From Saccharopolyspora phatthalungensis (lineage in GTDB: Bacteria > Actinomycetota > Actinomycetes > Mycobacteriales > Pseudonocardiaceae), in the NCBI RefSeq assembly GCF_014203395.1, contig NZ_JACHIW010000001.1, positions 5,067,501 through 5,131,500 of the forward strand: a stretch of 64,000 nucleotides of DNA. The letters run 5' to 3'. Of the stretch, positions 8,712-25,298 are shown in pieces. Made by a program: the position numbers and the translations under genes. Position 1 is the first letter of the stretch. Every line of letters begins with the position of its first letter. Under the pieces are notes generated by a model. It ran no database searches. It worked only from the letters and a program-made list of their open reading frames with translations, and was not told where the DNA came from.

Positions 8712-8733
8712 GCTGGCAACGTATGGTGCGTAA

Positions 8734-10188
8734 ATGGCTCGCAACAAGGACCAATCACCACCCCGGTTTCGTGGGCCAATCGGGCACTGCTCGGCCGAGG
8801 AACTGCGTGCCGCCCTGACGTGGCCGCCGCCCGGTACTGGGCGGTTGAGTACCCGGCTGGCGGGCAGCCTGCGCGAGTTGATCCGCGGTGGTGGGTTGCC
8901 CTCGGGCACCGGCCTGCCCCCTAGTCGGTCGGTCGCCGCGGCCCTGCGAGTCTCCCGGGGTGTGGTGGTCACCGCGTACGACCAGTTGATCACCGAGGGC
9001 TTCCTGGACGCCAGACAGGGGGCGGGGACCTGGGTCGGCACTGCGATCGAGACACCGCCGGGCCCGCCGCCCTCGGCGCCCGCGCCCGTGGCCCGGCCGG
9101 GCCTGCCGGATCTGGGGGACTTCCCGCGGAGCCGGTGGCTCGCCGCCTATCGGCACGCGCTGAGCTCCATGGGCTCCGCGGACCTTGGCTACGGCGACCC
9201 CCGCGGGCACAGTGGGCTGCGGACCGAACTAGCCGGGCACCTGCGGCGCACCCGGAGTGCTGTCGCCGAGGCCGACGGAATACTGATCATCAACGGGGTG
9301 GCCGAAGGGCTGGCCCTGCTGGCGGACGTCCTGCTGGACTCCGGTCGGGCCACCGTGGCGGTGGAGGACCCGGCCAGCCCGGGTGCCCGTGACCTGCTCG
9401 CCCGGCGCGGCTTGGAGGTGGTGGGCATCCCGGTGGACGAGGCGGGCATGGACGTGGCCCGGATCAAGTCCCCAGAGCGACTCGGTGCCATTTTCCTCAC
9501 CCCGGCACACCAGTATCCGACGGGGGTGGTGCTGAGCCCGGAACGCCGCAGGGCCTTGATCGAGCTCGCCCGGCGGCACGATCTGGTGCTGATCGAGGAT
9601 GACTACGACGGTTCGTTCCGGTTCGACCGGGAGCCGGTGGGGTGCCTTCAGGGACTCGCCTCGGACGTCACCGTTCTGCTCGGCTCGGTGAGCAAGACCC
9701 TCGCCCCGGCGCTGCGGCTGGGCTGGCTGATCGGTCCGCGGGCGCTGCAGGAACGCCTCGTCGAACGGCGGGTGATCACCAATCTCGCAGGGCAGACGGT
9801 CGACCAATTGGCGCTCGCTCATTTGCTGCGTAGTGGAACGTACGACAAGCATGTCAGGCAGATGCGTCGCACTTACCATGCCCGACGTAGAGAACTGATA
9901 GTTGAATTGGCGAACAAAGCGCCAAATGTTGTGGTATGCGGTGACAGCAGTGGTTTGCACCTGCTTGCGGAGGTGCCGTCACCGGCACACGAACGTGTAG
10001 TTCTGTCGGTGCTGCGGGCCGACGGATTCGCGGTCCAAGGCCTAGCTGAATGCCGTCTGGGTGGCGTGTCGGGGCGGACAAGTGGCCTGGTCATCGGCTT
10101 CGCCTCGCTCAAATCCGCTGCACTGACGCGGCTGGCTGACTTGGTGGGCCAGGTATGTTCCGGAACTGGTCCGGTCGCGGACTTCTAA
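8734..10188 (+). CDS. MocR-family regulator (GntR wHTH fused to aminotransferase domain)
   Basis: 484 residues. The N-terminal GntR winged helix spans about residues 40-110 (LPPSRSVAAALRVSRGVVVT as the helix-turn-helix) and a fold-type-I aminotransferase-like domain fills the rest. The PLP-binding lysine is Lys321 in SVSKTLAPAL, and the DDYDGSFRFD motif upstream supplies the Asp that contacts the pyridine ring. Such proteins bind PLP and an amino acid or amine as effector rather than catalyse transamination. It sits between the EamA exporter (divergent) and the 13-gene operon (same strand), and is a likely regulator of both. Confidence 0.92.
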   Translation: MARNKDQSPPRFRGPIGHCSAEELRAALTWPPPGTGRLSTRLAGSLRELIRGGGLPSGTGLPPSRSVAAALRVSRGVVVTAYDQLITEGFLDARQGAGTWVGTAIETPPGPPPSAPAPVARPGLPDLGDFPRSRWLAAYRHALSSMGSADLGYGDPRGHSGLRTELAGHLRRTRSAVAEADGILIINGVAEGLALLADVLLDSGRATVAVEDPASPGARDLLARRGLEVVGIPVDEAGMDVARIKSPERLGAIFLTPAHQYPTGVVLSPERRRALIELARRHDLVLIEDDYDGSFRFDREPVGCLQGLASDVTVLLGSVSKTLAPALRLGWLIGPRALQERLVERRVITNLAGQTVDQLALAHLLRSGTYDKHVRQMRRTYHARRRELIVELANKAPNVVVCGDSSGLHLLAEVPSPAHERVVLSVLRADGFAVQGLAECRLGGVSGRTSGLVIGFASLKSAALTRLADLVGQVCSGTGPVADF

Positions 10189-10324: not shown

Positions 10325-11614
10325 ATGCGCACTAATTCCGTACGTCATGCTCAATCGCAGGCACGAGTTGCCGTGGTCGGCGTCGGCTACACCGGGTTGC
10401 CCTTGGCGCTCGGTTTCGCTCGCACCGGTCTGTCAGTGATCTGTCTGGACAATGATCCGGACAAGATCGCTGCCATCACTTCAGCACAGTCCTATTTGCC
10501 CGACGTCACCGACGCTGAACTGGCCGCGGCCAGTGATCGGCTCCACGCCACCACCGACCCGGACAAGCTGAGCATGTCCGATTCGGTCGTGATCTGTGTT
10601 CCGACGCCGTTGGACGCTCACGGGGCTCCAGATCTTTCCGCGGTGTTCTCGGTGATCGACACCGTCGGGCCCCGGATGAAGCCCCGCTGCCTGATCGTCT
10701 TGCAGTCGACCGTCCCGCCGGGAACCACCAGGGCCCTCGCGCAACGACTGGCCGACCGCTCCGGTCTGCTGCCCGGCAAGGACTTCCATCTGGCCCACGC
10801 GCCGGAACGGATCGACCCAGCCAACAAGGCCGGGTGGAACTTGGCGAACACACCCAAGCTCGTCGGTGGCCTGACGCCGGCCTGCACCTCCGCGGCCACA
10901 GAGTTGTTCGCCCAGGTCATCGAACATGTGGTGCCGGTGTCCACGTTGGAGGTCGCCGAGACGGCGAAGGTCTTCGAGAACACCTTCCGCATGGTCAACA
11001 TCGCGCTGACCTACGAATTGGCCGATCTCTGCGCAAGCATGTCCATTCCGGTCAACGAGGTGATCGACGCGGCGTCGACCAAGCCGTACAGCTTCCTGGC
11101 CCACCGGGCCGGACCGGGAGTTGGCGGCGAGTGCATCGCCGTGGACCCGATGTTCCTCACCTCGGTCGCCGACAAGGCCGGCGTGGACCTACCGATGATC
11201 TGCTCGGCCTACCGGCGCATCCGGGCCCGGCCGTTGACCGTGGCGGAACGACTCAATGAACTGCTGCGTGCACGGGGCACCGACTTGGCGGGCAGCCATG
11301 TCCTCGTGGTGGGTGTGGCCTACAAGCCGGGTGTCGCCGACACTCGCAACGCGCCCGCAATCGACCTCATCCGGGCGTTGCGGGCTGCGGACGCAAAGGT
11401 GTCCTACACCGACCCGATGGTGCCGGAACTGCAAGTGGATAACGAGGTGGTGCCCTACGTCGACTGGAGCCGGGAATCGGTCTCGGCCGCCGACTGCCTG
11501 GTGCTGACCACTCCGCACGAGGAAATTATGCGGCGACCGCTGTGGTACGCCGCGCCGATGCTGCTGGACTGCTGGCACATCGTGCAGGCCGGTGACGGGG
11601 TCGTGCACCTGTGA
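10325..11614 (+). CDS. Nucleotide-sugar 6-dehydrogenase (UDP-HexNAc dehydrogenase-like)
   Basis: 429 residues from ATG 10325, which has GGGGGAA at a suitable distance; an in-frame GTG at 10265 is less likely. It has the three-domain UDP-glucose/UDP-N-acetylmannosamine dehydrogenase layout: NAD-binding GVGYTGLPLALGFARTG, STVPPGTT, APERIDPAN, the ETAKVFENTFR helix with the catalytic Lys, and the active-site Cys270. Around that Cys the text is GPGVGGECIAVDP, with Glu where the family normally has His (GGHCIPVDP). The expected reaction is NAD-dependent two-step oxidation of C6 to a uronate. It is the first gene of the operon and overlaps trpD by 4 bases. Confidence 0.85.
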   Translation: MRTNSVRHAQSQARVAVVGVGYTGLPLALGFARTGLSVICLDNDPDKIAAITSAQSYLPDVTDAELAAASDRLHATTDPDKLSMSDSVVICVPTPLDAHGAPDLSAVFSVIDTVGPRMKPRCLIVLQSTVPPGTTRALAQRLADRSGLLPGKDFHLAHAPERIDPANKAGWNLANTPKLVGGLTPACTSAATELFAQVIEHVVPVSTLEVAETAKVFENTFRMVNIALTYELADLCASMSIPVNEVIDAASTKPYSFLAHRAGPGVGGECIAVDPMFLTSVADKAGVDLPMICSAYRRIRARPLTVAERLNELLRARGTDLAGSHVLVVGVAYKPGVADTRNAPAIDLIRALRAADAKVSYTDPMVPELQVDNEVVPYVDWSRESVSAADCLVLTTPHEEIMRRPLWYAAPMLLDCWHIVQAGDGVVHL

Positions 11615-12657
11615 CCGAGCTGGCCAAACTGACCAGGGAGGTGGCGGCCGGCAGGGCGGGAGACCCGGTCACAGCCGCCACCCTGCTCCTCGACCCGGAG
11701 GCCGAACAGGTCGATGTGGCGGCGTACCTGACCGCCAAGGCACAGGCCGGGGCGACCGCCGAGGATGTCGAAGCGCTCGCCAGGGCTGTGCTCTCGGCTG
11801 CCGTCCGTGTGCCGTACGACGGCCGGGCCTGCGACCTCGTCGGCACCGGAGGTGACGGATCCGCGTCGGTCAACATCTCCACGCTGGCGGCACTTCTGGC
11901 CGTGGCCTCTGGCGCGACGGTTGCCAAGGCGGGCAACCGCGCGGCCACCAGCCGGTGCGGCAGTGCCGACCTGCTGGAGGCCCTCGGGGTGCCGGTGGAT
12001 CCCGGGCCGCAGGGCATCGCCCACGCGCTGCGAGACCCCGGGTTCGCCTTCGTGCTGACCTCCGCAGTGAATCCTGCGGTGACCAGGCTCGCCGCGCTGC
12101 GCAGGCGGCTCGGGTTCCCGACTCTGTTCAACCTGTCCGGCCCGCTGACCAACCCGGTGGCCACCGGTGCCCGGATCATCGGCGTGGCCAAGGAACGTGA
12201 CCAGGAGGTCATGGCCGAGGCTGCGGCCAGGCTCGGGATGTGCCCGGCCTGGCTGGTCCGGGCCCACAACGGGATGGACGAGCTGAGCACCTTGGTCCCG
12301 ACGAAGGTCATCGTGGTGGCTGAGGACGCCACCGAGACCTTCACGCTGGACCCGGCGGACCTGGGGGTGCGCCGCGCCCTGCCGGAGGAACTGGCGGGTG
12401 GCGGACCCGAGGACAACGCGGCGATCGCTCGCGCGGTCCTGCGCGGGACGGCCGCGCCGGGACTGGTGGAAACCTGCGCACTGAACGCGGCGGCCCTGCT
12501 GGCCGCCGAGTTGAACACCGTGGACCGGGTGGGGGAGATCGCCCGGCAACTCGACCGCGTCCGCGAAGCCGTCATCGGCGGTGCGGCAGCGCGGCTGCTG
12601 GCCGACCTGACCACGGCCCTCACGAATCGGAAGGTCAAGGCTGATGTACCTGGATGA
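11611..12657 (+). CDS. trpD: Anthranilate phosphoribosyltransferase
   Basis: 348 residues, GTG start overlapping the previous stop. It transfers anthranilate to PRPP, the second step of tryptophan synthesis. The PRPP loop GTGGDG, the NISTL segment and a GNRAATSRCGSADLLEALGV helix are present. Two family motifs differ: the usual KHGNR reads KAGNR, and the DDGLDE-type metal loop reads HNGMDE and is shorter. These could alter the substrate pocket. The next gene starts 14 bases before this stop, so translation is coupled. No trpE or trpG is nearby, so anthranilate must come from elsewhere. Confidence 0.93.
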   Translation: MTELAKLTREVAAGRAGDPVTAATLLLDPEAEQVDVAAYLTAKAQAGATAEDVEALARAVLSAAVRVPYDGRACDLVGTGGDGSASVNISTLAALLAVASGATVAKAGNRAATSRCGSADLLEALGVPVDPGPQGIAHALRDPGFAFVLTSAVNPAVTRLAALRRRLGFPTLFNLSGPLTNPVATGARIIGVAKERDQEVMAEAAARLGMCPAWLVRAHNGMDELSTLVPTKVIVVAEDATETFTLDPADLGVRRALPEELAGGGPEDNAAIARAVLRGTAAPGLVETCALNAAALLAAELNTVDRVGEIARQLDRVREAVIGGAAARLLADLTTALTNRKVKADVPG

Positions 12658-13423
12658 GATCCTCGTTCACAAACGGGCGGTGTGGCACAACGACACCGCG
12701 CTGACGGCCGGGGTGCCGCAGCGGCGACCCGTGCCGGTGCGCCCGGGCGCGCTGCGCGAGGCCCTGCGCAAAGACACCGTCACGGTGATCGCCGAGGTCA
12801 AGCCCAAGTCTCCGTCCAAGGGAGCGCTGTGGAGTGCGGAGCGGGGCCTGGCGTTGGCGCGTGACTACGCCGCGTTCGGTGCCGGGGCGATCTCTGTGCT
12901 GGCCGACGACCGGTTCTTCGGTGGATCACCGGCGCTGGTATCGCAGATCGCAACCGACGAACAGGTCACGGTTCCGGTGATGTACAAGGACTTCCTGGTC
13001 GATCCACGGCAGGCCGAACTGGCCGCGCGCAGTGGCGCCGACGCCGTGCTGATCATCGTTAGGGCGCTGGATGACGCCGGGTTCCGCGAGCTGTTCCAGA
13101 CGGCAACCGAGCTTGGGCTGGACGTGCTTGTGGAGACCTTCACCGAGGAGGAGATCGGCCGGGCATTGGAGGTCGGTGCCCGGATCGTCGGCATCAACAA
13201 CCGCGACCTACGTACCTTCCAGGTCGACCTGGAGAACTCGGTGCGGCTGCGGCGCTTGCTGCCCGAGGAGGTCGTGACGGTCAGCGAGAGTGGCATCGGG
13301 TCCGCCGACGACGTGAAGCTGCTGGCGGAGGCCGGTTTCGACGCGATCCTGGTCGGTGAGACGCTGCTGGCCAGCGCCGACCTGGCACAGACCCTCGGTG
13401 AGTTGGCGGGGGTGCGCCGATGA
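12644..13423 (+). CDS. trpC: Indole-3-glycerol-phosphate synthase
   Basis: 259 residues, a single TIM barrel. The catalytic lysine strand [11 protein letters not shown], the YKDFLVDP loop, the NNRDLRTF strand and the phosphate-binding SESGI and ILVGE motifs are all present. It decarboxylates and cyclises CdRP to indole-3-glycerol phosphate. The LVETF segment replaces the more usual LVEVH/LVEVN but keeps the Glu. It starts inside trpD and its stop overlaps trpB by 4 bases. Confidence 0.95.
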
Positions 13424-14619
13424 CCGGCATGTTCGGTGAGTACGGGGGCCAGTTCGTCCCGGAGACCCTGGTCGGCCCGCTGGACCAGGTCGAGGCCGAA
13501 TACCAGGCGGCGAAACAGGATCCTGCGTATCAGGCGGAGATCGACGATCTGCTGCGCGGGTTCGTCGGACGGTCCACGCCGATCACGCGGCTGCGCCGCC
13601 TGCACCGCGAGCGCGAGGCCACGGTGTGGCTTAAGCGGGAGGACCTGATCCACACCGGCGCTCACAAGATCAACAATGTCATCGGGCAGGCCTTGCTGGC
13701 CCAGCGGATGGGCAAGCGCCGGATCATCGCGGAGACCGGAGCCGGGCAACACGGGGTGGCCGTGGCCGCCGTCTGTGCGCACCTGGGCCTGGACTGCACG
13801 ATCTTCCAGGGCAGTGTGGACGCCAAACGTCAGGAACCGAATCTGCAGCGCATGCGGCTGCTGGGGGCCAATGTCGTGCTGGTCGACGCGGGTAGCGCCA
13901 CCCTCAAAGACGCTGTCAGCGAAGCGATCCGGGACTGGCTGGCCCATCCCGCCGACACTCACTACCTACTCGGCTCGGTCATCGGCCCGCACCCGTATCC
14001 GACGATCGTGCGGGACTTCCAGTCTGTGATCGGCCGCGAAGCCAGGGCCCAGATTCTGGCGGAGATCGGGCGGCTGCCCGACGCGGTGGTGGCCTGCGTG
14101 GGCGGTGGCAGCAACTCGCTCGGCATCTTCAGCGCGTTCCTCGACGATCCTGTGCCACTGTACGGAGTCCAGGCCGCCGGCGAAGGCACGACCTGGCTGG
14201 GCAGGCATGCAGCGCCACTGCTGTACGGGGAGCCCGGCGTGCTGCATGGCACTCGCACCGACCTGATCCAGGACGAGGACGGCCAGATCCAGCCCACCCA
14301 CAGCATCGCGCCAGGCCTGGACTACGCGGGAGCGGGACCCGAACACTGCCACCTGCGTGACCTCGGCCGGGTGTCCTACCTCGTCGTCACCGACGCGCAG
14401 GCCCTCGACGCCTTCGCGGCACTGAGCGCGACTGAGGGCATCATCCCCGCGCTGGAATCGGCTCACGCGATCGCCGCGCTGCCCACGATCCTGGCAGATC
14501 TGCCCGCCGACGCGCAGGTGCTGGTGAACCTGTCCGGCCGTGGAGACAAGGATCTGAGCAGCGCGTTCGAGGCCCTGGCGGCCAGGAAAGACGGAGAGCC
14601 CCATGTCCAGGATCGCTGA
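13420..14619 (+). CDS. trpB: Tryptophan synthase beta chain
   Basis: 399 residues. The PLP lysine is Lys83 in HTGAHKINN; the catalytic Glu lies in AETGAGQHG, the PLP-phosphate loop is [10 protein letters not shown], and the C-terminal LSGRGDKD motif is intact. It condenses indole with serine in complex with TrpA. Nothing in the motifs suggests loss of activity. It overlaps trpC by 4 bases and trpA by 17, so both subunits should be made in step. Confidence 0.96.
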
Positions 14620-15409
14620 AGCGTTCGCCACCGCCCGCAGCCGGGGCGAACTCGCGCTGGTGCCGTACCTGACCTCGGGTTACCCGAACACGACAGAGAC
14701 GGTCGACCTGGTCCGGGCGGCGGTGGACGGCGGTGCCGATGTCATCGAGTTCGGCGTGCCCTTCTCCGACCCGATGGGCGATGGCCGGGTCATCCAGGAG
14801 GCGAGCCAGGTCGCACTGGCCGGGGGTATGACCCTGACGGGCACCCTGGAGCAGGTCTCGGCAACCAGGGCGGCGGGGGTGACCACTCCGATCGCGCTGA
14901 TGGGGTATCTCAACCCGTTCCTGCGTTATGGGGTGAAACAGCTGTTCGCCGACGCCGCCGAGGCGGGAGTGGACGGCTTCATCGTGCCGGACCTGCCGCC
15001 CGACGCCGCCGGGTTTACCGAGAAGTGGATCGAGCAGGCGACCGCCTCAGGCGTCGACCTGGTGTTTTTCGCGGCCCCGGGCAGCAGCCCACAGCGGCTT
15101 GCCGCAGCCGGGGCGGCGACCGGCGGATTCCTGTACTGCCTGGCCACCGACGGGGTGACCGGGGCACGCGAGGACCTCGACGAGCGGCTACCCGCCTATC
15201 TCGCGAGGGTGCGCGCGGCCACCGACGCCGCGTTGGCCGTGGGCTTCGGTATCTCCCACCCACGGCATGTGGCGGCGCTGCGGGGACTCACCGACGGCGT
15301 CATCGTCGGCAGTGCGCTATTGCGGGAGATCGCGGCCACTGGGAACGCCGAAGGGCGGCGCGCGGCGGTGACCCGGCTGGTCGGTGAGCTGAAGGCAGCG
15401 GGCCTATGA
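14603..15409 (+). CDS. trpA: Tryptophan synthase alpha chain
   Basis: 268 residues, TIM barrel. The two catalytic acids appear in the conserved context: Glu in IEFGVPFSD and Asp in DPMGDG. The phosphate site GFGIS and an IVGSALL strand follow near the end. It releases indole from indole-3-glycerol phosphate and channels it to TrpB. It starts 17 bases inside trpB and overlaps the following oxidoreductase by 4 bases, which ties the tryptophan genes to the amino-sugar genes in one transcript. Confidence 0.95.
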
Positions 15410-16368
15410 GTGTGTTGCGACCGGTCCTGATCGGATACGGGCACGCGGGCCGGGACCTGCACCACCGCAGTCTGCGCACCCTCGGCCTGGCTGAGAACGT
15501 GCTGGTGGTCGACCCCCTGCGCCCGGACCGGCTGGCGCCCGGCACGCGCTGGCTGCCGGACCTGCCCAGTGCCCTGGCGGAGCTGTCGGATGCAAGCGCG
15601 GGGATCTTCCACGTGCTGACCCCGGTCGACCAGCACCTGCCGGTCACCAGGGCGCTGCTCACGGCCGGGGCCAGCCGGGTGATCTTGGAGAAACCCATCA
15701 CCGCAACCTTCGACGAGGCGGTGGAGCTCGCCCAGCTGACCAGCAGAGCCGATGTCGCGCCTGTCAGCGTGTGGCCGGCCAGCCGCATCACCGAGCGGGT
15801 GCGGGAGCTGCTCGCCGCAGGCCGGATCGGCGAGCTGACCGAGCTGCACTTCGAGCAGAGCAAGCCAAGGTTCCGGCGCAGTATGCGCCACTGCGGCCAC
15901 CGCAGCGCGTTCGAGGTCGAGCTGCCGCACCAGGTGTTACTCGCGCTGCACCTCGCGGGCGCGGTGGAGGAGCTGGTGGAGGCCCGAGCCTGGGACAGTC
16001 CACTGTGCAGCCCGCTGGGCGGGGCGGTGATGGTGCTGCGCCACGCCAGCGGGGCGACCAGCACCCTGGTCAGCGACCTGACCTCGCCCGTGCGGATCCG
16101 CAGACTGCGGCTGACCGGCACGGCCGGGGAGATCGTCGCCGACTATCCGGTGGGTTCCGAGGATGACTTCGGGCAGGTCCGCGTGGTGGGGGAGGACCGC
16201 GAAGTGCTTGTGGACGCCCCGCTGACCCAGTTCATCGAGCGTGTTTACGCGCACGCCGCCGGGGTGGGGCCACCGCCACTGGCCCCGCTATCCGATCACG
16301 TCAGCGTAATCGCCCTGCTGGAACGGGCAGCGGCCATGTCGAGCTCAAGGAGAACCGTGGCGTGTTGA
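15406..16368 (+). CDS. Gfo/Idh/MocA-family NAD(P) oxidoreductase (first copy)
   Basis: 320 residues. The N-terminal Rossmann domain starts GYGHAGRDLHH, and the ILEKPITATFDEA motif carries the family's EKP lysine; the C-terminal alpha/beta domain binds a sugar or cyclitol in known members. The typical reaction is oxidation of a ring hydroxyl to a ketone, feeding a PLP aminotransferase. The next gene is such an aminotransferase, and the pair with the upstream nucleotide-sugar dehydrogenase recalls the WbpA-WbpB-WbpE order of 2,3-diamino-uronate synthesis. The substrate here is not known. Confidence 0.85.
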   Translation: MSVLRPVLIGYGHAGRDLHHRSLRTLGLAENVLVVDPLRPDRLAPGTRWLPDLPSALAELSDASAGIFHVLTPVDQHLPVTRALLTAGASRVILEKPITATFDEAVELAQLTSRADVAPVSVWPASRITERVRELLAAGRIGELTELHFEQSKPRFRRSMRHCGHRSAFEVELPHQVLLALHLAGAVEELVEARAWDSPLCSPLGGAVMVLRHASGATSTLVSDLTSPVRIRRLRLTGTAGEIVADYPVGSEDDFGQVRVVGEDREVLVDAPLTQFIERVYAHAAGVGPPPLAPLSDHVSVIALLERAAAMSSSRRTVAC

Positions 16369-17492
16369 TACCGATCCCTTTCTATTCCTGCGCCGATTCG
16401 GTGCGCCGCAATTGGGAATCGCTTGAGCGGCGAGTGCGGGCGGTGGCCGACAGCGGGCGGTTCACCTCCGGTCCGATGGTCGCGGAGCTGGAGACGGCCA
16501 TCGCCGCCTACACCGGTGCCAAGCATGCCGTGGCCTGCAACAACGGCACCGACGCGCTGATACTCATGCTGAAGGCGGCCGGCATAGGCCCCGGCGACGA
16601 GGTGATCGTGCCCGCCTACACCTTCTTTGCCACCGTGTCCTCGGTGCTGCGGGTCGGCGCCGAGCCGGTGATCGTGGACGTGCTGCCCGGGTCCTACGCG
16701 ATGGATCCGGAACGGGCGGCTGCCGCGATCGGCCCGCGTACCAAGGCGATCATGCCCGCGCACATGTTCAGCCAGACCGCCGACCTGGTCGCGTTGACTG
16801 AACTGGCCGCCCAGCACGGCCTTCGGCTACTGGAGGACAGCGCGGAAGCGATCGGGATGTGGGTCAACGGCAGGCACGCGGGCCTGTGGGGCCGGGCAGG
16901 CGTGCTGTCCTTCTTCCCGACGAAGACCCTTGGCGGCATCGGGGATGCCGGCATGCTGATCACCGATGATGCCGAGCTGGCCGCCGAGGTACGCCGGAGG
17001 CGGTGCCACGGCCAGGCCACCGACGGGGCGTATGTCTACGAGGTGCTGGGCTGGAACAGCCGGTGCGACGAGTTGCAGGCCGCGGTGTTGCTCAGCCGCC
17101 TGGAAACTCTGGACGCGGAGATCGAACGCCGGGCCGCGCTCGCTGCCCGCTACACCGAGCGGCTGGCGGCAGTGGTGGACACTCCGTGGCTGGCTCCGGC
17201 GAAGTCGCCCAGCAACCAGGTCTGGTACGTGTACCTGATCGAGTCTGACCGGCGTGACGCGTTGGTCGAGCACCTCGACGCGCATGGGGTCGGCACCGAG
17301 GTGTACTACCCGCGGTCGCTGTCCGAGCAGCCCGCGTTGCGGGATTTGCCGGGAGCGAGCCTGCCCACACCTGTCGCGACCGTCGCCAGCAGGCGTGCGG
17401 TGGGTCTGCCGTTGTATCCGGACCTCACCGACGCTCAGGTCGACCGTGTCTGCGCGCTGATCACCGATTTTCACCAGGGGGGCACGCGATGA
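16362..17492 (+). CDS. DegT/DnrJ/EryC1/StrS aminotransferase (first copy)
   Basis: 376 residues, fold-type-I PLP enzyme. It contains GTDALILMLKAAGIGPGDEV, PAYTFFATVSS, the EDSAEAIG motif and the PLP lysine Lys188 in FFPTKTLGGIGDAG. Members transfer an amino group to keto-sugars or keto-cyclitols. It overlaps the first Gfo/Idh gene by 7 bases and the second aminotransferase by 4, so the two aminotransferases probably act on different carbons or in sequence. Confidence 0.92.
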   Translation: MLIPIPFYSCADSVRRNWESLERRVRAVADSGRFTSGPMVAELETAIAAYTGAKHAVACNNGTDALILMLKAAGIGPGDEVIVPAYTFFATVSSVLRVGAEPVIVDVLPGSYAMDPERAAAAIGPRTKAIMPAHMFSQTADLVALTELAAQHGLRLLEDSAEAIGMWVNGRHAGLWGRAGVLSFFPTKTLGGIGDAGMLITDDAELAAEVRRRRCHGQATDGAYVYEVLGWNSRCDELQAAVLLSRLETLDAEIERRAALAARYTERLAAVVDTPWLAPAKSPSNQVWYVYLIESDRRDALVEHLDAHGVGTEVYYPRSLSEQPALRDLPGASLPTPVATVASRRAVGLPLYPDLTDAQVDRVCALITDFHQGGTR

Positions 17493-18610
17493 GTGCGGTG
17501 TCGTTTCACGGCTGGCCGCAGCGCTACGCCGCAGAGGCTGACCTCGTCGTCGATCTCGTGCGGGAGGTCGGCGAGTCCGGCGAGTTCATCCTGAAGTCCA
17601 AGGTCGCCGCGCTGGAGCAGGAGATCGCCGCCGCACTGGGGGCGCGGCACGCAGTGGCCTGTGCTAGCGGGACGGGTGCGCTGACGTTGATCCTGGCCGC
17701 ACTGGGGATCGGCAACGGCGATGAGGTGGTGACGCCCGCGTTCTCCTTCATCTCCTCGGCGAGCACCATCGCCCTGGCCGGTGCCCGGCCGGCGTTCGCC
17801 GATGTGGACGAACGCACTTTCACCCTGGACCCGGCTGCCGCGCGCGCGGCGATCAGCCCGTCCACGGCCGCGCTGCTGCCCGCGCACCTGTTCTCCTGCA
17901 TGGCCGACATGCCCACGCTGCGGGAGATCGCGGACGGCCGGGGGTTGCGGCTCATTGAGGACAGCGCGGTCAGTTTCGGTGCCGTCGTCGGCGGTGTTCC
18001 GGCTGGGAAACACGGCGACGCCGGGGTGTTCTCCTTCTTCCCCGGCAAGCCACTCGGCGGGATCGGGGACGCGGGCATGGTCGTCACCGACGACGATGAC
18101 CTGGCACTGAGGGCGCGGGTGCTGCGCAACCACGGTCAGCGACCCGGCCAGCGATTCCTGCACGAGCTGGTCGGCTTCAACTGCAGGATGGATGAGCTCA
18201 GTGCCGGGTACCTGCTGCACGTTCTTCCTCGGCATCAGCAGGTGCTGGAAGCCCGGCGGGAACGGGCGGGCTGGTATACCGAACGGCTCAACTCGCTGGC
18301 CCCGGATCTGGTGCTGCCGCCGCAGGACTACACCGGACGGGCTGTCTACACGTTCGTGGTCCGTGCCCGGTCGCGTACCGCGTTGCGGGAGCACCTTGCT
18401 GAGCGGGGCATCGAGACGATGATCTACTACCCGATGCCGCTGCACCTACAGCCGGTATTCGGGGGCCTGGGGCACCGGCAGGGCGAGTTCCCGGTGGCCG
18501 AACGGCTGGCGCAGGAGGTTCTCGCGCTGCCGTTGCGGCCGGACCTGGGCCGCGACGACATCGATCGGGTCTGCGACGCGATCCAGGCGTTTTACGGCGG
18601 TGGCGCGTGA
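17489..18610 (+). CDS. DegT/DnrJ/EryC1/StrS aminotransferase (second copy)
   Basis: 373 residues, same fold as the preceding gene but clearly diverged. Key parts are GTGALTLILAALGIGNGDEV, the EDSAVSFG motif and PLP Lys187 in FFPGKPLGGIGDAG. In the EDSAxxxG motif the residues after Ser-Ala differ from the first copy. With the lysine kept, it should be an active PLP enzyme rather than a dehydratase-type variant. Four-base overlaps on both sides place it within the operon. Confidence 0.92.
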   Translation: MSAVSFHGWPQRYAAEADLVVDLVREVGESGEFILKSKVAALEQEIAAALGARHAVACASGTGALTLILAALGIGNGDEVVTPAFSFISSASTIALAGARPAFADVDERTFTLDPAAARAAISPSTAALLPAHLFSCMADMPTLREIADGRGLRLIEDSAVSFGAVVGGVPAGKHGDAGVFSFFPGKPLGGIGDAGMVVTDDDDLALRARVLRNHGQRPGQRFLHELVGFNCRMDELSAGYLLHVLPRHQQVLEARRERAGWYTERLNSLAPDLVLPPQDYTGRAVYTFVVRARSRTALREHLAERGIETMIYYPMPLHLQPVFGGLGHRQGEFPVAERLAQEVLALPLRPDLGRDDIDRVCDAIQAFYGGGA

Positions 18611-19431
18611 TCGAACGTCTCTGTGGCATCGGGGACGAGGCGGCGCCGGGCCTGCTGCGGCAAATCGCGGTGCACCGTGAGCTCGGGCTGACCGGCCTGG
18701 AACTGCGCACCATCGACGGAGTGGGGATCCACGAACTGAGCGACGCCCAGGCGGATGCCGCCGCGGAGGCGGTGGAGGCGGCCGGTCTTACGGTGCCCGT
18801 GGTGGCCACTCCGCTGGGCAGCTGGGCGGTCACCGTCGGCGTGTCCGACGAGTCCGAGGCCGACGTACTACGCCGGGCAGCCCGCAACGCCGCCCGATTC
18901 GACTGCCGCAGGCTGCGGATCATGTCCTACCCGAACGACGGTCGCGGTGCGGCGCAGTGGCGGGCGGAGGCCATCCGCAAGGTGCGTCTGCTCGCCGAGT
19001 TGGCCGCCGAGCTGAATGTGACGCTGCTGCACGAGAACTGCAACGGGTGGGCGGGGAGCAGCGCGGCACGCTCCCTAGAACTTTTGTCCGAAGTGGACGG
19101 TCTGCGGCTGTTGTTCGACATCGGCAACGGGATCGCCTACGGCTACCCCTCGCTGCCCTTCCTACGAGACGTGCTGCCCTACGTCGACCACGTGCACGTC
19201 AAGGACGGCCACACCGAGCAGGGCAGGGCGGTGTTCGGCTGGCCTGGCCAGGGCCAGGCGCAACTGACCGACTGCCTGCGGGTGCTGCGCGAGTCCGGCT
19301 ATCAGGGCTGGTACAGCGTGGAACCGCACATCGCGAAGATCCCGCACCTGGGTGTCACCGGGGATCCGGAGCTGATGACGGCGGGGTACATCGACTACGT
19401 CCGCCGCCTGGAAAAGGTGGCGACGGCATGA
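18607..19431 (+). CDS. Sugar-phosphate isomerase/epimerase-like TIM barrel
   Basis: 274 residues of the AP-endonuclease-2 / xylose-isomerase-like TIM barrel family. Likely metal ligands are visible in order: Glu in LLHENCNGW, Asp in LLFDIGNGI, His in DHVHVKDGH and Glu in WYSVEPHI. Members isomerise or epimerise sugars, inosose or hydroxypyruvate, or dehydrate related polyols. Here it probably shapes the sugar or cyclitol intermediate (inference). 4-base overlaps on both sides. Confidence 0.85.
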   Translation: MIERLCGIGDEAAPGLLRQIAVHRELGLTGLELRTIDGVGIHELSDAQADAAAEAVEAAGLTVPVVATPLGSWAVTVGVSDESEADVLRRAARNAARFDCRRLRIMSYPNDGRGAAQWRAEAIRKVRLLAELAAELNVTLLHENCNGWAGSSAARSLELLSEVDGLRLLFDIGNGIAYGYPSLPFLRDVLPYVDHVHVKDGHTEQGRAVFGWPGQGQAQLTDCLRVLRESGYQGWYSVEPHIAKIPHLGVTGDPELMTAGYIDYVRRLEKVATA

Positions 19432-20711
19432 ATGGCAAGGATCTGGACTGGTTGCTCGAGTTGATGGCGATCCCGACGGTTAGCCCGTTGGAAGGCGGTG
19501 ACCTCAGCGGGTTCGTCACCGCGCAGCAGTCGTTCATCGAGGGGGCGCTGGCCCGGGGATGGCAGGTCCGGCGCCACGATCACCCACCGCTGGCCGATGT
19601 GCTGCGCGCGGATCTGCCGCAGCAGGTACGCGCGGTGGCCACGGCGGAGTTGCTGGCCGCGCAGCCGTCGGTGGTGGTGGGGTTCGGCGGTCCGCAACCG
19701 GTGGCGCGGCGGATCGTCCTCAACTTCCATATGGACACCGTGGGCCCGCATGTGCCACCTCGCCTGGACGGGGAGGTGCTTCGGGGGCGCGGCGCCGTCG
19801 ATGACAAGGGCCCCGGGGTGGCCGCGCTGGCCGGGATCACCGCCGCCTTCGACCGGGCGCCGTGGCTGGCCGAGCACATCGAGGTGCAGGTGGCCAGCGT
19901 GCCCGGCGAGGAAGGCGGCGCGATGGGGGTCTACGGTACCCGCTGGCTCGTCGAATCCGGGTGTGTGGGCCGGCTGATGCTATTCGCCGAACCCACCGGC
20001 GGCCGGGTCTTCGACGCCTGTAGCGCCGCGATGACCCCCATGCTGTCGGTGCACGGTGAGGACAGCACCGATGACCATCCTGCGCGCGGGCACAACGCCA
20101 CCGTCGCCCTGGGGTTCCTGGCCTGCCGGCTGGCCGAGGAGTTGGGGCCGCTCGCGGAGAAGCTCGGCGCGAAGGTCTGTGTGGCCGGGGTACACAGCGG
20201 CACCGAACACAACCGGGTCTATGGCAGCGGCGAGTTGCGGCTGAACATCGCCTACTACGACGAGCAGTCGGCCACCGCGCTGGCCGCCGAGGTGCAGCGA
20301 GTAGCCGACAACGCCGGGGAAGAGTTCGCCGCTCGCTTCCGGGACAACCCGGTGACATGCAGGCTGCTCGCCGACTGGTCGACGACTGTGCGGCTGACCT
20401 GGCTCAAGCGCGGTCTGCCCGCCCTGGCCAACCGGGACCCGGAGATGGAGGCATTGCTGGGCACGGCCGGCTTCCCGCGCCACGACGCCATCGCCGACGG
20501 GTCGGCCTTCACCTGCGACGCCATCTGGGCGCCGGCCCCGGGGCGCTACGTCGCGGCCTGCGGTCCTGGTGACCTGGACGCCAACGGGGCGCACACCCCC
20601 GACGAACACGTTGCACTCGGCGAACTCAGTCGGTATGCGGATCACTGCCGTGATCTGGTGCTGGCTTTCGGCGCGCACGTACGTAACACCGAACTGGAGG
20701 GAACCACATGA
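19428..20711 (+). CDS. M20-family metallohydrolase
   Basis: 427 residues from ATG 19428, which overlaps the previous stop by 4 bases; longer in-frame starts would lie deep inside the isomerase gene. All M20 di-zinc residues are visible: HMDTVGPH, the bridging Asp in GRGAVDDKG, PGEEGG with the catalytic Glu, FAEPTGG, and a C-terminal His in NGAHTPDEH. The family cleaves, or occasionally forms, amide bonds (deacetylases, dipeptidases, amidohydrolases). In this setting it may deacetylate an N-acetyl amino sugar or process a sugar-amino-acid amide; both are inferences. Confidence 0.88.
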   Translation: MNGKDLDWLLELMAIPTVSPLEGGDLSGFVTAQQSFIEGALARGWQVRRHDHPPLADVLRADLPQQVRAVATAELLAAQPSVVVGFGGPQPVARRIVLNFHMDTVGPHVPPRLDGEVLRGRGAVDDKGPGVAALAGITAAFDRAPWLAEHIEVQVASVPGEEGGAMGVYGTRWLVESGCVGRLMLFAEPTGGRVFDACSAAMTPMLSVHGEDSTDDHPARGHNATVALGFLACRLAEELGPLAEKLGAKVCVAGVHSGTEHNRVYGSGELRLNIAYYDEQSATALAAEVQRVADNAGEEFAARFRDNPVTCRLLADWSTTVRLTWLKRGLPALANRDPEMEALLGTAGFPRHDAIADGSAFTCDAIWAPAPGRYVAACGPGDLDANGAHTPDEHVALGELSRYADHCRDLVLAFGAHVRNTELEGTT

Positions 20712-21814
20712 CCGTCCACATCAAGGCAGCGAGCCTGCGCGGGTTCGTGGTGGAGGTGTTCCGGGCCTGCGGCTTGGACCCGGAATCGGCGCGGACCGCA
20801 GCGGACGTGGTCTGTTATGCCGACGAGCACGGCTTCACCACGCACGGAACCAACGCGCTGGCCAACATCTACGCACCCCGGCTGCGCGACGGCCGGATCG
20901 CCGCGGCCGCCCGGCCCGAGGTGGTCAGTGACACCGGCGCGGTCGCCGTGGTCGACGGCAATGGGGGACTGGGGCTGCTCGCCATGACCGCGGCCACCGA
21001 CCTCGCCGGGCGCAAGGCCAGGACCCAGGGCATCGGCATGGTCGCTGTGCGCGGCAGCAACCACTTCGGCAGCGCGGGGTTCTACGCGCAGCGGCTCACC
21101 GAGCAGGGCCTGATCGGTATGGCCCTGACCAACTGCGGCCCGCAGGGGGTGGCCCCGCCGCTGGGGGGCGCGCTGCGGATGCTGGGCACTAACCCGCTGT
21201 CGGCCGCCGTTCCCTCCGGTGAGCACCCGCCGTTCGTGCTGGACATGAGCACCACGGTGGTGGCCACGGGCAAGATCCAGGCCGCCCAGCTGCGCGGGGA
21301 AGACGTGCCGCCCGGCTGGCTCTACAGCCGGAACGGGGCGGTGGTCACCAACCCGGCCCGCTACTACGAAGGCACCGCCGACGTGGCCTGGCTGGGCGGT
21401 CCGCTGGCCACCGGCGGGGCCAAGGGATTCGGGCTGGGGCTGCTGGTGGACATCCTGTGCGGCCCGCTGGCCGGTGCCGCCTTCGGGCCGAACCGTCAGG
21501 TTTTGGGGGGCGGAATGCCGCAGGCCGACAGCAATGTCGGGCATGTGGCCATCGCCATCGACCCGGCCGCGTTCGGCACCGCATCCGCCTTCACCTCCGG
21601 GATGGACGAACTGCTGAGCACCGTCCGCGCCTGCCCGCCAGCGGTGGACGGCCGGCCGGTCACCTACCCCGGTGCCCCGGAAGCCGCGCGGGCGGCCCGG
21701 TCGCTGGCCGAGGGCGTCGAACTGCCGGACGCCGTGGCCACCAGGCTGCGGGCCCTCGCCGCAGAGCTGTCCGTCGCCGAGCCGGCCGGGCTCGTCTCGG
21801 TGGCGGCGGCATGA
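20708..21814 (+). CDS. Ldh_2 (malate/L-sulfolactate/ureidoglycolate dehydrogenase) family oxidoreductase
   Basis: 368 residues. It begins with the family's helical N-terminus (ADEHGFTTHGTNAL, carrying the conserved HG pair) and contains the catalytic GSNHFGSAGFYA, LGTNPLSAA, LDMSTTVVATGKI and GAKGFGLGLLVDIL motifs. Members use NAD(P) in a non-Rossmann fold and act on 2-hydroxy acids or cyclic imino acids. In the operon it could reduce a keto or imino acid; the substrate is not known. Confidence 0.9.
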   Translation: MTVHIKAASLRGFVVEVFRACGLDPESARTAADVVCYADEHGFTTHGTNALANIYAPRLRDGRIAAAARPEVVSDTGAVAVVDGNGGLGLLAMTAATDLAGRKARTQGIGMVAVRGSNHFGSAGFYAQRLTEQGLIGMALTNCGPQGVAPPLGGALRMLGTNPLSAAVPSGEHPPFVLDMSTTVVATGKIQAAQLRGEDVPPGWLYSRNGAVVTNPARYYEGTADVAWLGGPLATGGAKGFGLGLLVDILCGPLAGAAFGPNRQVLGGGMPQADSNVGHVAIAIDPAAFGTASAFTSGMDELLSTVRACPPAVDGRPVTYPGAPEAARAARSLAEGVELPDAVATRLRALAAELSVAEPAGLVSVAAA

Positions 21815-23133
21815 AACTCGCCGTTATCGGACTCGGCGCCATCGCGCCGTATTTCGTATCCGCCATCGACCGGGACCCGACCCTGACCCTGGCGGCCGTC
21901 TGCGACCTGGATGACATGAAACTCATGTCGTGGCGCCAAAATGGGGTGGCGACCTTCACCGACTACCGCGAGCTGCTCGACTCCGGGCTCATCGACGGAG
22001 TCGTGATCACACTGCCGAACGACCTGCACGCCGAGGTCGCCTGCGCGGCACTGGCCAAGGGCGTGGCCGTGTGCTGCGAGAAACCGATGGCCGTCACCGT
22101 CGAAGAGGCGGCCAGGATGGTGGACGTCGCAAACCGGTCAGAGACAGTGCTTTTCACCGCCTTCCACCGGCGCTACAACCGGCATCTGCTCGACTTGGCC
22201 GCGAGGTTGCCCGCCGACCACAGCCGGATCGCCCATGTCGTACATCGATACCAGGAGAACATCGAGGAACACACCGGCGGCGACGCCTGGTACCTCGACC
22301 TCGCCCGCTGTGGTGGGGGATGTGTGATCGACAACGGGCCCAACGCCTTGGACGCCGTCCGGTACTTGTTGGGCGACCTGCGGTTGGTGGACGCCACCAT
22401 CGGGGACGTGCGATCCGGCAACGAGTTCTACGCCGAACTGGATCTGCGTAGCGCCAGCGGGGTCGCGGTCCGGGTGGAACTGGACTGGGCGCTGCCAACC
22501 GGTGAGGTCAAAGACATCGAGGTGCACCTGCACGACGGCACCGTGCTCGGCGCGGACCTGCTCGCCGGGTACACAGAGTTCAAATCCTCGCTGGAACACG
22601 AGTACAGCGGCATCCTGACCGCGTTCCGAGAGGCCGTCGCCGAGGGCCGGACCTACCGGGACCCAGGGCCGGACGTGGTAGCCCTGGTCGCCCACGCCTA
22701 CAAGGTAGCCAGGACAAAAGAGACCCGGCAGCGGATGGTCGCCAAGAAGGACTGCTCCGCGGCAATGGTCAAGTTGCTCTTCCACACCCGGGACGACCGG
22801 GGCATGAAGCTGTCGCCCTGGGGTTCCCGCTGCGTGTCCGCTGGGGAGATCCACGAGCTAGTCACCACCACGGATCGGCCGGTCCGGGAGGGCGAGCGGG
22901 TGGACAACGTCGGATTCTTGGGGTTCGCCGAGTTCCTCCAGGCGACGGTGCTGGAACGCGGGGACGAAGTGTGGTTGGGAGGTGATCAACGACTCGGTAA
23001 GATCATCGGTTTTGACGAATGCCATTTCCCCAATCACTACAACGTTCTCATCGAGGTGCCGGCACTGGTCACCGCCGCCGACCTAGACCTGCGGCCAGGT
23101 GACGCAATCCATGTCCAAAGGGGTAGCCAATGA
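21811..23133 (+). CDS. Gfo/Idh/MocA oxidoreductase with an extra C-terminal domain
   Basis: 440 residues. Residues 1-315 are a Gfo/Idh/MocA enzyme: GLGAIAPYF nucleotide motif, CCEKPMAVTVEEA with the catalytic-site lysine, FHRRYNR and a GGGCVIDNGPNALD segment with the active-site Asp. About 120 further residues, beginning near KKDCSAAMVKLL, form a separate domain with a GFLGFAEFLQATVLERGDEV helix and an ECHFPNHYNVLI segment. The family is normally 320-380 residues, so this is a fusion. The extra domain is one I do not recognise with certainty. Four-base overlaps with both neighbours. Confidence 0.85.
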   Translation: MKLAVIGLGAIAPYFVSAIDRDPTLTLAAVCDLDDMKLMSWRQNGVATFTDYRELLDSGLIDGVVITLPNDLHAEVACAALAKGVAVCCEKPMAVTVEEAARMVDVANRSETVLFTAFHRRYNRHLLDLAARLPADHSRIAHVVHRYQENIEEHTGGDAWYLDLARCGGGCVIDNGPNALDAVRYLLGDLRLVDATIGDVRSGNEFYAELDLRSASGVAVRVELDWALPTGEVKDIEVHLHDGTVLGADLLAGYTEFKSSLEHEYSGILTAFREAVAEGRTYRDPGPDVVALVAHAYKVARTKETRQRMVAKKDCSAAMVKLLFHTRDDRGMKLSPWGSRCVSAGEIHELVTTTDRPVREGERVDNVGFLGFAEFLQATVLERGDEVWLGGDQRLGKIIGFDECHFPNHYNVLIEVPALVTAADLDLRPGDAIHVQRGSQ

Positions 23134-23783
23134 TCGAACCCATCCACGTCGCGCCCGAGGTGGCGGCACGCTTCCCGGATGTCCGGGTGCTGTGCGCCGC
23201 CACCACCGCCAGCCCGCCCGAGGAGATCCAGGCGGCGGCCGACCAGCTCTGGGCCACCGAACACGAACGCTGGTCCGGCGTCAGTCGCGGTGAAATCCGC
23301 AGGCATCCGAACGTGTCGGCCTACCGTCAGTTCAGCACCCGGCTCGGCATCGACCCGGATCGCCAGGCGCCCTCCATCCAGGCGTTGATCGACCGGGGCC
23401 TGCGGAACAAGCCGCTCGGCGGCTGGCTGCGGATCAATCCCATTGTGGACCTACTCAACGCCACCGCGGTGGCCACCATGATCGCCCTGGGGGTCTTCGA
23501 CGCCGATCAGGTACACGGACCGGTGCGGCTGCGCCTCACCGGCGAGCGAGAGCCGTTCCATGCCCTGGGTGCGGAGCAGGCCGAAAACCTCGAGCCGGGA
23601 AGGCTGGTGCTGGCCGATGACGAGCGGGTGTTGTCGCTGTTCAGCTACCGGGACGGGGTGCAACAGGCGGTCGGGAAGGAGACCACCAACGTACTTGTGC
23701 TCGGCTGCCTTGTGACGGGCATCGAGGAAGGTGAGGTGACGCAGGCGGTCGAACGTGCGGTTCGGGGCATCCACGGAAGTTAG
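23130..23783 (+). CDS. B3/4-domain protein (PheT-like tRNA-editing domain)
   Basis: 217 residues. The sequence RFPDVRVLCA near the start, VSAYRQFSTRLGIDP, LGGWLRINPIVDLLNATAV and the FSYRDGVQQAVGKETTNVLVLG stretch are characteristic of free-standing B3/4 proteins. These resemble the phenylalanyl-tRNA synthetase beta-subunit domain that hydrolyses mis-acylated tRNA. As last gene of an operon that makes tryptophan and amino-sugar precursors, it may clear tRNA mischarged with a non-protein amino acid, or be recruited as a hydrolase. The role is inference; the domain call is firm. Confidence 0.82.
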   Translation: MIEPIHVAPEVAARFPDVRVLCAATTASPPEEIQAAADQLWATEHERWSGVSRGEIRRHPNVSAYRQFSTRLGIDPDRQAPSIQALIDRGLRNKPLGGWLRINPIVDLLNATAVATMIALGVFDADQVHGPVRLRLTGEREPFHALGAEQAENLEPGRLVLADDERVLSLFSYRDGVQQAVGKETTNVLVLGCLVTGIEEGEVTQAVERAVRGIHGS

Positions 23784-23846: not shown

Positions 23847-25298
23847 GTGTCCGTCGTCCTGACTCTGGATGTCGATCGACGCACCAACCTCGCACTGAAT
23901 GAGCAGATTCGGCAGCGGATCATCCATCTGATCAACGACGGGGCGTTACCGCCGGGCACGAAAATGCCGTCAAGCAGACAGCTCGCCCGGGACCTGGGTG
24001 TATCCCGCTCCGTCGTTGTCGAGGCCTACCAGCAGCTCACCTCGGAAGGCTGGCTGCTGTCGCGGAACAGGTCGGGCACGACGGTGTCCCAGCACTCGGC
24101 AAACGAGCCGCGGACCCTGGTGACCACAGCCACCGCCAAGGCTCCAAGGACACGCTGGAACCTGGTACCGGGCAGCGCGGATGTCCGCAGCTTCCCGCGC
24201 CGGGAGTGGATGAGCTGCATGAACACCGTGATTCGCCGCATGTCCGACAGGGACATGGACTATCCGCCACCCGCCGGGGTGCCGTCGGCCCGGGCGGCTC
24301 TGGCGAACTATCTCGGCCGGGTCCGGTTGGTGCGCACCAATCCAGAGCAGGTGATGATGACCGCGGGCTTTGCCCAGGGCCTCACCCTGGTCTGCCGGTT
24401 GCTGTTGCGCCGGGGCATCGACCAGATCGGGCTGGAGGACCCAGGACATCCTGGTCAGCGCCTGTACCTGGAGAACCTGGGCATGCGCACGGTGGCGATC
24501 AACGTCGACGAGCAGGGCCTGAATGTCGCGGCATTGGCCCGGAGCGGAGTCCGCGCCGTGCTCGTCACACCGGCCCACCAGTTCCCCACCGGTGTGGTGC
24601 TAACCGCCGAACGCAGGCAGGCACTGGTGGAGTGGGCCGAGCACGTCGACGGCTGGATCATCGAGGACGACTACGACGGCGAATTCTGGTACGACCACTC
24701 CAGCAGGCCGCACAGCCTGCAGTGTCTGTCACCGGAGCGGGTCGTCTACGGCGGCACGGCCAGCAAGTCCCTCGCTCCCGGGCTGCGGATGGGCTGGCTG
24801 GCCGCTCCCAAGACAATCTCCGGGGAGCTCCAGGTTGTCCGGGAGACCTTCGACCTGGGCAGCGGAACCGTGGAACAGCTGGCCTACGCCGAATTCGTTC
24901 AGTCGGGCTTGCAGGACAAGCACCTGCGGCGCGTCCGTGAATCCTACCGACAGCGCTGGAACCTGATCCGCGAGTACTTGATCGACGGCCACAGCGACAA
25001 GCTGCCCGAAATCCAGCTGACCGGGGTCGCCGCCGGACTGCATGCACACCTGCGGTTCCCTGAGGATCTGTGCGAGGAGGAGTTCCTGCACCAAGCGGAG
25101 CTGCGGGGGATCGCGCTGCACGGGGCCAGCCGGTTCCGGCTGAAGCGGGCGGACAGCCCGCCCGGCATCGTGCTGGGCTACGCCAAGGAATCAGGTGCCT
25201 GGCTGGCGGAGGCCCTCGGCGTGCTGCGCCATCTGGCGATCAGCCTGCGCAGAACCGTGCCGCGGCGAGAAACTCGCGAATCCGGCCGGTGTCCTTGA
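23847..25298 (+). CDS. MocR-family regulator (second copy)
   Basis: 483 residues, GntR winged helix (PPGTKMPSSRQLARDLGVSR, about residues 30-75) fused to an aminotransferase-like domain. PLP Lys307 lies in GGTASKSLAPGL and the ring Asp in EDDYDGEFWYD. It follows the operon after a 63-base gap on the same strand and converges with trpF; the two 3' ends overlap by 59 bases. With the first MocR at 8734 it brackets the biosynthetic operon, so one may respond to the product and the other to a precursor (inference). Confidence 0.92.
   Translation: MSVVLTLDVDRRTNLALNEQIRQRIIHLINDGALPPGTKMPSSRQLARDLGVSRSVVVEAYQQLTSEGWLLSRNRSGTTVSQHSANEPRTLVTTATAKAPRTRWNLVPGSADVRSFPRREWMSCMNTVIRRMSDRDMDYPPPAGVPSARAALANYLGRVRLVRTNPEQVMMTAGFAQGLTLVCRLLLRRGIDQIGLEDPGHPGQRLYLENLGMRTVAINVDEQGLNVAALARSGVRAVLVTPAHQFPTGVVLTAERRQALVEWAEHVDGWIIEDDYDGEFWYDHSSRPHSLQCLSPERVVYGGTASKSLAPGLRMGWLAAPKTISGELQVVRETFDLGSGTVEQLAYAEFVQSGLQDKHLRRVRESYRQRWNLIREYLIDGHSDKLPEIQLTGVAAGLHAHLRFPEDLCEEEFLHQAELRGIALHGASRFRLKRADSPPGIVLGYAKESGAWLAEALGVLRHLAISLRRTVPRRETRESGRCP

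Follow-up and report, generated by a model that had tools for sequence, protein, structure and literature searches.

Introduction

The locus described here lies in a 64,000-nucleotide stretch of DNA (hereafter the window) from the 8.54 Mb genome of Saccharopolyspora phatthalungensis, and consists of a 13-gene operon in which tryptophan genes (trpDCBA) are combined with genes for amino-sugar enzymes. Its parts can be set beside several described systems. The WbpA-WbpB-WbpE route makes UDP-2,3-diamino-uronic acid for the Pseudomonas O-antigen and has a nucleotide-sugar 6-dehydrogenase (NSDH), a Gfo/Idh/MocA oxidoreductase and a DegT aminotransferase in common with the operon, albeit by family-level matches only. 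However, the families shared among the clusters reported below include no acetyltransferase, epimerase or glycosyltransferase, and they add an isomerase, an M20 amidohydrolase, an Ldh_2 reductase, a DUF6917 domain, a second DegT enzyme and the trp genes. The congocidine precursor pathway reportedly uses sugar enzymes to build an amino-heteroaromatic acid; the likeness is one of function and lies in that sugar origin, whereas here the shared families hold no non-ribosomal peptide synthetase (NRPS) and Trp enzymes stand downstream. Relatives of the bacilysin ligase BacD occur in some clusters, although none is found among the window genes scanned and the amino acid comes from another pathway. 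The housekeeping trp operon shares the trpD, trpC, trpB, trpA and trpF families with the locus, whose TrpC keeps residues K115 and E164; in contrast, the locus is a second copy, with its TrpC in a separate clade, changes beside conserved residues and a sugar module joined to it. Lastly, passages of PMC10018355 describe CtdA, a free-standing B3/4 protein that deacylates canavanyl-tRNA(Arg) and keeps the antimetabolite out of proteins. A first-pass annotation of the window knew of no pathway with the present gene set, and open-access full text likewise yielded none among the matches listed.

Results and Discussion

Distribution and composition of the cluster

A conserved sugar core is joined to specialised trpC and trpB, to trpA and to a gene for a free-standing B3/4 protein in bacteria of three phyla. 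In the window, all 12 junctions between the 13 plus-strand open reading frames (ORFs) overlap, nine of them by 4 bases and the rest by 7, 14 and 17 bases, as the first-pass annotation had stated. Loci were compared through DUF6917, the domain fused to the C-terminus of the second of two Gfo/Idh/MocA oxidoreductases (Gfo1 and Gfo2). There are 98 labelled DUF6917 loci, a set that omits the window itself, the eight loci L037-L044 and a hit in genome G057. Twenty carry trpC, trpB and trpA with at least five core genes (hybrid loci), 69 carry the core without trp genes, and the remaining nine, with under five core genes each, were excluded from the comparison of 20 with 69. The excluded loci include L028 and L144, whose contigs are equally long and which were taken as the same place, and L261, which has B3/4, trpF and DUF6917 in pieces. 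Flanks were mostly ~10 kb, and absence therefore means absence from the fetched stretch unless a whole genome was searched.

The B3/4 gene was found in 20/20 hybrid loci and 0/69 trp-less loci (Fisher value 2.5e-20, which ignores relatedness). Both DegT genes, the isomerase, Ldh_2, Gfo2 and DUF6917 were likewise each present in all 20 hybrid loci, followed by M20 (19/20), Gfo1 (17/20) and NSDH (13/20), whilst trpC, trpB and trpA are universal by definition of the class and trpD and trpF are optional. With the window there are 21 hybrid clusters, 14 from Bacillota, 3 from Pseudomonadota and 4 from Actinomycetota, and gene order differs among them. The claim that trp and amino-sugar genes form a real unit is thus borne out, as the 20 other joined loci exclude an arrangement peculiar to this strain.

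With the oxidoreductase-DUF6917 protein as query, named genomes yielded 17 loci, six of which hold trpC, trpB and trpA together with sugar genes (Rugamonas, Halalkalibacter, Algicola, Paenibacillus xylaniclasticus, Bacillus changyiensis and Pseudomonas zanjanensis). Among sampled genomes, in counts that include the centre genome, DUF6917 occurs in 16/61 relatives and 11/394 genomes of the class, in 2/299 from the order of B. changyiensis, and in 1/298, 12/295, 1/245 and 53/355 of the family samples for Pseudomonas, Paenibacillus, Rugamonas and G365, respectively. All 11 loci newly found in the Paenibacillus family are hybrid, as are 3 of 53 in the G365 family, where a fourth lies in pieces.

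The window trp genes are not the housekeeping operon. Elsewhere the host genome holds a further trpC-trpB-trpA set, preceded by a TrpE-like gene, and two more TrpDs over the family cut-off, which answers the possibility that trpDCBA here might be the only tryptophan operon. Another TrpB or TrpC is retained in each of the 18 cluster genomes tested. A third TrpD-like gene of the window's genome (L117, 7472-8443) has KHGG in place of KHGN.

The sugar core

The best relative of the window NSDH in the Protein Data Bank (PDB) is 4r16, named as a hypothetical UDP-ManNAcA dehydrogenase. Relatives of the M20 protein numbered 851 among 8000 scored candidates, and in some relatives (P0012, P0019, P0082 and P0090) the isomerase and M20 form one protein. 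The DUF6917 part is predicted to be all-beta (predicted local distance difference test score, 94). In the ORFs scanned, neither a glycosyltransferase nor a ligase was seen among the families common to the clusters; since no glycosyltransferase is shared, the sugar is probably rebuilt and not transferred.

The trp-less cores have neighbours of their own, namely UbiA (26/69), an FAD amine-oxidase-like protein (24/69) and an AMP-ligase (14/69), and a DXP synthase gene lies beside one of them. The host genome itself contains the sugar core a second time (L013, G000:C2:938000-957000); the stretch fetched there holds no trp genes, and the core is accompanied by genes for UbiA, an FAD-oxidase and an AMP-ligase. 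Prenylation of aromatic acids is a common activity of UbiA enzymes. An aromatic-type acid as the product of the core would account for such neighbours, which fit it but do not show it.

DUF6917 relatives also occur in other settings. Locus L026 (965-16374) has a standalone relative with a threonine-synthase-like pyridoxal phosphate (PLP) enzyme, a thiamine pyrophosphate enzyme and BacD-like ATP-grasp ligases, and is possibly a different antimetabolite cluster. In a betaproteobacterial metagenome-assembled genome (MAG) a relative adjoins CinA (L037, 9827-10908). Similar genes in five more bin or MAG loci (L038-L042) indicate that DUF6917 is not confined to the cluster.

Specialised Trp enzymes

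The residue positions discussed here were chosen after the alignments had been viewed, and the cluster sequences are related, such that the counts are not independent. Two extra rows, x_own2 and x_Paen3, were kept out of the housekeeping tally for the residue counts, and the larger alignments were made without x_Actk2. In the TrpC tree the 18 cluster rows form one clade against 20 housekeeping rows (support 97/98). Six changes are found in 21/21 clusters and 0/20 housekeeping copies, namely T to A/G at 87, R to Y/F at 114, R at 140, V to T/C at 165, H to F at 166 and A/V to F at 232 (window numbering). K115 and E164, which we take to be the catalytic Lys and Glu of indole-3-glycerol phosphate synthase, are kept in 21/21. 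The cluster TrpBs also form a clade, with weaker support (89/82), and S297-A298 is replaced by A-P in 18/18 cluster copies against none of only nine housekeeping rows, with three more clusters agreeing by motif. In the same screen TrpA showed no fully split position and serves as an internal control. Some weaker positions came through it as well, namely TrpD 44 and 270, TrpA 156 and 211 (neither fully split), TrpB 154 and a number of further TrpC positions. Taken together, these comparisons suggest that cluster TrpC and, less firmly, TrpB are specialised relative to the primary-metabolism copies.

TrpD, present in 12/21 clusters, is different. The cluster copies are not one clade, and the starred branches require the cluster label to have been gained or lost at least four times, most simply suggesting that TrpD was recruited more than once; the window row is a long branch whose place in the tree is unsure. 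A150 to T/S and A160 to L/W occur in 9/9 aligned cluster copies and 0/20 housekeeping copies. Two further copies show the changes by eye, such that 11 readable copies agree, and the sequence piece of the twelfth (L260) stops short of both positions. By alignment they correspond to Ala179 and Ala189 of the Mycobacterium tuberculosis enzyme, shortly before Arg193, which passages of PMC5537072 describe as binding anthranilate. The same passages give KHGN as an anthranilate/phosphoribosyl pyrophosphate motif; it has become KAGN in the window and KCGN in two Bacillota copies. Shared changes in TrpDs that were apparently recruited separately point to a shared unusual demand.

Paenibacillus xylaniclasticus has a third, diverged TrpB (L105, 8814-9980), separate from its cluster and housekeeping copies. 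In Actinokineospora (L123, 6675-13571) strongly diverged TrpD-, TrpA- and TrpC-like genes lie beside an AMP-ligase, perhaps another repurposed Trp pathway.

Proofreading, export and ligation

The best PDB relative of the window B3/4 protein is CtdA (9f7e, E 1.2e-8), and both are free-standing. However, CtdA acts on a foreign antimetabolite, whereas the window protein sits in a putative production cluster, and in Rugamonas and Pseudomonas one open frame spans the cluster B3/4 and TrpB (617 and 622 aa). The B3/4 protein is predicted to give tRNA-level self-protection against a toxic amino acid, a safeguard that the maker of a tryptophan- or phenylalanine-like toxin would require. The gene, called tRNA-editing-like in the first-pass annotation, fits that role better than one in joining two units.

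An EamA exporter gene is present in 13/20 other hybrid loci, and that of the window is 52% identical to the EamA beside the core of Longimycelium. Moreover, a BacD-like ligase, a second ATP-grasp protein and a major facilitator superfamily (MFS) transporter occur in 7/20 hybrid loci, all of the Paenibacillus family; the ATP-grasp ligase of L034 scores 372 bits to the alanine-anticapsin ligase model, below its cut-off of 850. The exporters and ligases also point to an amino acid product.

Possible products of the cluster

We consider it likely that this is an undescribed cluster for a toxic tryptophan-related amino acid. Our preferred reading, to which we give a probability of roughly 40%, is that modified Trp enzymes convert an anthranilate mimic, itself made from a sugar, into a toxic, exported tryptophan mimic. 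The core would take a nucleotide amino sugar of the UDP-GlcNAc type and, by oxidation, two aminations, deacylation, isomerisation and reduction, could yield a small amino-carboxylate ring compound mimicking anthranilate, the ring compound being a guess. The mimic would be taken up by the TrpD and TrpF of the cluster or, in clusters without them, by promiscuous housekeeping counterparts, and modified TrpC followed by TrpA and TrpB would convert the intermediate to a tryptophan mimic. EamA would export this product, B3/4 would strip it from mischarged tRNA and, in some clusters, a BacD-like ligase would cap it as a dipeptide. Such a linear route would account for the changes in TrpC and TrpD, for B3/4 and for the absence of any joining enzyme. 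Its most specific version is offered tentatively: a second, sugar-fed route would run from a nucleotide sugar through a heteroaromatic anthranilate mimic and a neofunctionalised trp pathway to a heterocyclic mimic of tryptophan, and in some species the proofreading domain would be fused to the releasing enzyme. The first-pass reading, in which tryptophan is simply conjugated to an amino sugar, is not supported as it stood, given the altered Trp enzymes, the optional trpD and trpF, a B3/4 protein suited to self-protection and shared families that, in the ORFs scanned, hold no glycosyltransferase or ligase.

Several observations weigh against the sugar-derived mimic. NSDH is missing from 7/20 hybrid loci and Gfo1 from 3/20, and DUF6917 has no clear fold match. 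Cluster TrpAs are not one clade (2 changes) and the clade of cluster TrpFs is weak (support 44/66). In whole-genome searches, 9/18 genomes yielded no second TrpD above the family cut-off, and four of the clusters in those nine also lack trpF; housekeeping enzymes would then have to accept the early intermediate, which normal anthranilate fits better. A TrpE/TrpG-like pair, which a sugar-derived mimic would not need, adjoins the Pseudomonas cluster and L259. The two TrpEs share 52% identity over 270 aa, whereas their identity to the remaining TrpE-like proteins in the comparison is 31-36%; the TrpGs are not clearly closer (49-53% to L259 and 49% to the other Pseudomonas TrpG). Lastly, Longimycelium has the core and EamA with a TrpB2 (L122, 15811-18213, minus strand; 684 bits to PRK12391), and TrpC and TrpA were not found on that contig. 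The clusters without trpD and trpF, the TrpE/TrpG pair and TrpB2 all strain a linear route.

Much of this would be accommodated by two substrates, with cluster Trp enzymes turning anthranilate into real indole or tryptophan and the core making a separate amino-acid-like unit; of the alternatives this comes nearest to the first-pass annotation. TrpB or another step would join the two, for instance through addition of indole to a beta-hydroxy amino acid that is made from the sugar and stands in for serine; PLP beta-replacement would be an economical joiner where no ligase or glycosyltransferase is shared, and TrpB is indeed changed at 297/298. The TrpE/TrpG-like pair, the apparent sufficiency of housekeeping TrpD and TrpF in several genomes and TrpB2 beside the Longimycelium core all suit this account. 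However, it leaves unexplained both the cluster-specific TrpC and TrpD changes and the constant presence of trpC and trpA despite housekeeping copies, and we regard it as somewhat unlikely. Producer clusters are known to carry duplicated targets, and on that model the core alone could make a toxin that inhibits TrpC or tryptophan synthase or is a competitor of tryptophan, with the trp genes as insensitive duplicates and B3/4 removing mischarged product. The constancy of trpC, trpB and trpA (again by definition) beside optional trpD and trpF, the other TrpB or TrpC kept in all 18 genomes tested, and TrpB2 as a potential insensitive substitute agree with self-resistance. Yet 69 core loci have neither trp genes nor B3/4 in the fetched flanks, housekeeping TrpD and TrpF are apparently unreplaced even though TrpD, when present, has shared pocket changes, and fusion of B3/4 to TrpB suits production better; this explanation appears unlikely. 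An ordinary trp operon, duplicated and hitch-hiking with a surface-sugar cluster without any joint product, is very improbable. Operons can travel together, and DegT, NSDH and Gfo resemble surface-sugar enzymes, but 21 clusters in three phyla keep nearly constant core content in reshuffled order, with a shared TrpC clade, strict co-occurrence of B3/4 and no glycosyltransferase among the shared families.

If the sugar-derived mimic is real, these clusters would be a widespread undescribed class of antimetabolite cluster, probably missed by mining centred on NRPS and polyketide synthase genes. They would offer a natural enzyme source for new tryptophan analogues and an example of a primary pathway redirected to another substrate. 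Hypotheses on the residues that set ring specificity follow from the changes in TrpC, TrpB and TrpD.

Gene layout of the window

The operon spans 10325 (open frame from 10265) to 23783 (Table 1). Third-position GC is 0.82-0.91 in 11/13 ORFs; M20 and the second oxidoreductase are absent from that listing because their mechanical ORFs start far upstream. The 13 families named in the first-pass annotation stand, whilst it had overlooked DUF6917, trpF, EamA and the two MocR-type regulators.

Table 1. Genes of the operon and its flanks, in window coordinates.
Feature	Coordinates	Strand	Basis or remark
EamA-family exporter	7794..9041	-	Pfam EamA, 81 bits; part matching relatives ~7794-8711; true start uncertain
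MocR-type regulator (GntR + aminotransferase-like)	8734..10188	+	Family match
NSDH, UDP-HexNAc type	10325..11614	+	TIGR03026, 362 bits
TrpD, diverged	11611..12657	+	KAGN for KHGN; T150 and L160 against housekeeping A
TrpC	12644..13423	+	Cluster-specific signature A87, Y114, R140, T165, F166, F232
TrpB	13420..14619	+	A297-P298 (HSIAPGLDY) instead of S-A
TrpA, near-standard	14603..15409	+	
Gfo/Idh/MocA oxidoreductase 1 (Gfo1)	15406..16368	+	Family match
DegT aminotransferase 1	16362..17492	+	Best PDB (nearest solved) relative WbpE
DegT aminotransferase 2	17489..18610	+	Family match
Xylose-isomerase-like TIM barrel, AP_endonuc_2 (sugar isomerase or epimerase)	18607..19431	+	Family match
M20-family amidohydrolase	19428..20711	+	Solved members only distant relatives
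Ldh_2-family reductase (malate/sulfolactate/piperideine-carboxylate type)	20708..21814	+	Family match
Gfo/Idh/MocA oxidoreductase 2 (Gfo2) with C-terminal DUF6917 fusion	21811..23133	+	
Free-standing B3/4 protein, candidate trans-editing deacylase	23130..23783	+	Pfam B3_4, 80 bits
Second MocR-type regulator	23847..25298	+	Family match
TrpF (phosphoribosylanthranilate isomerase)	25240..25845	-	Groups weakly with cluster TrpFs

Beyond trpF, and adjoining it, the minus strand at 26040-28422 carries an MFS protein resembling metabolite/H+ symporters and a Nit6803-type nitrilase, the latter scoring below its model cut-off.

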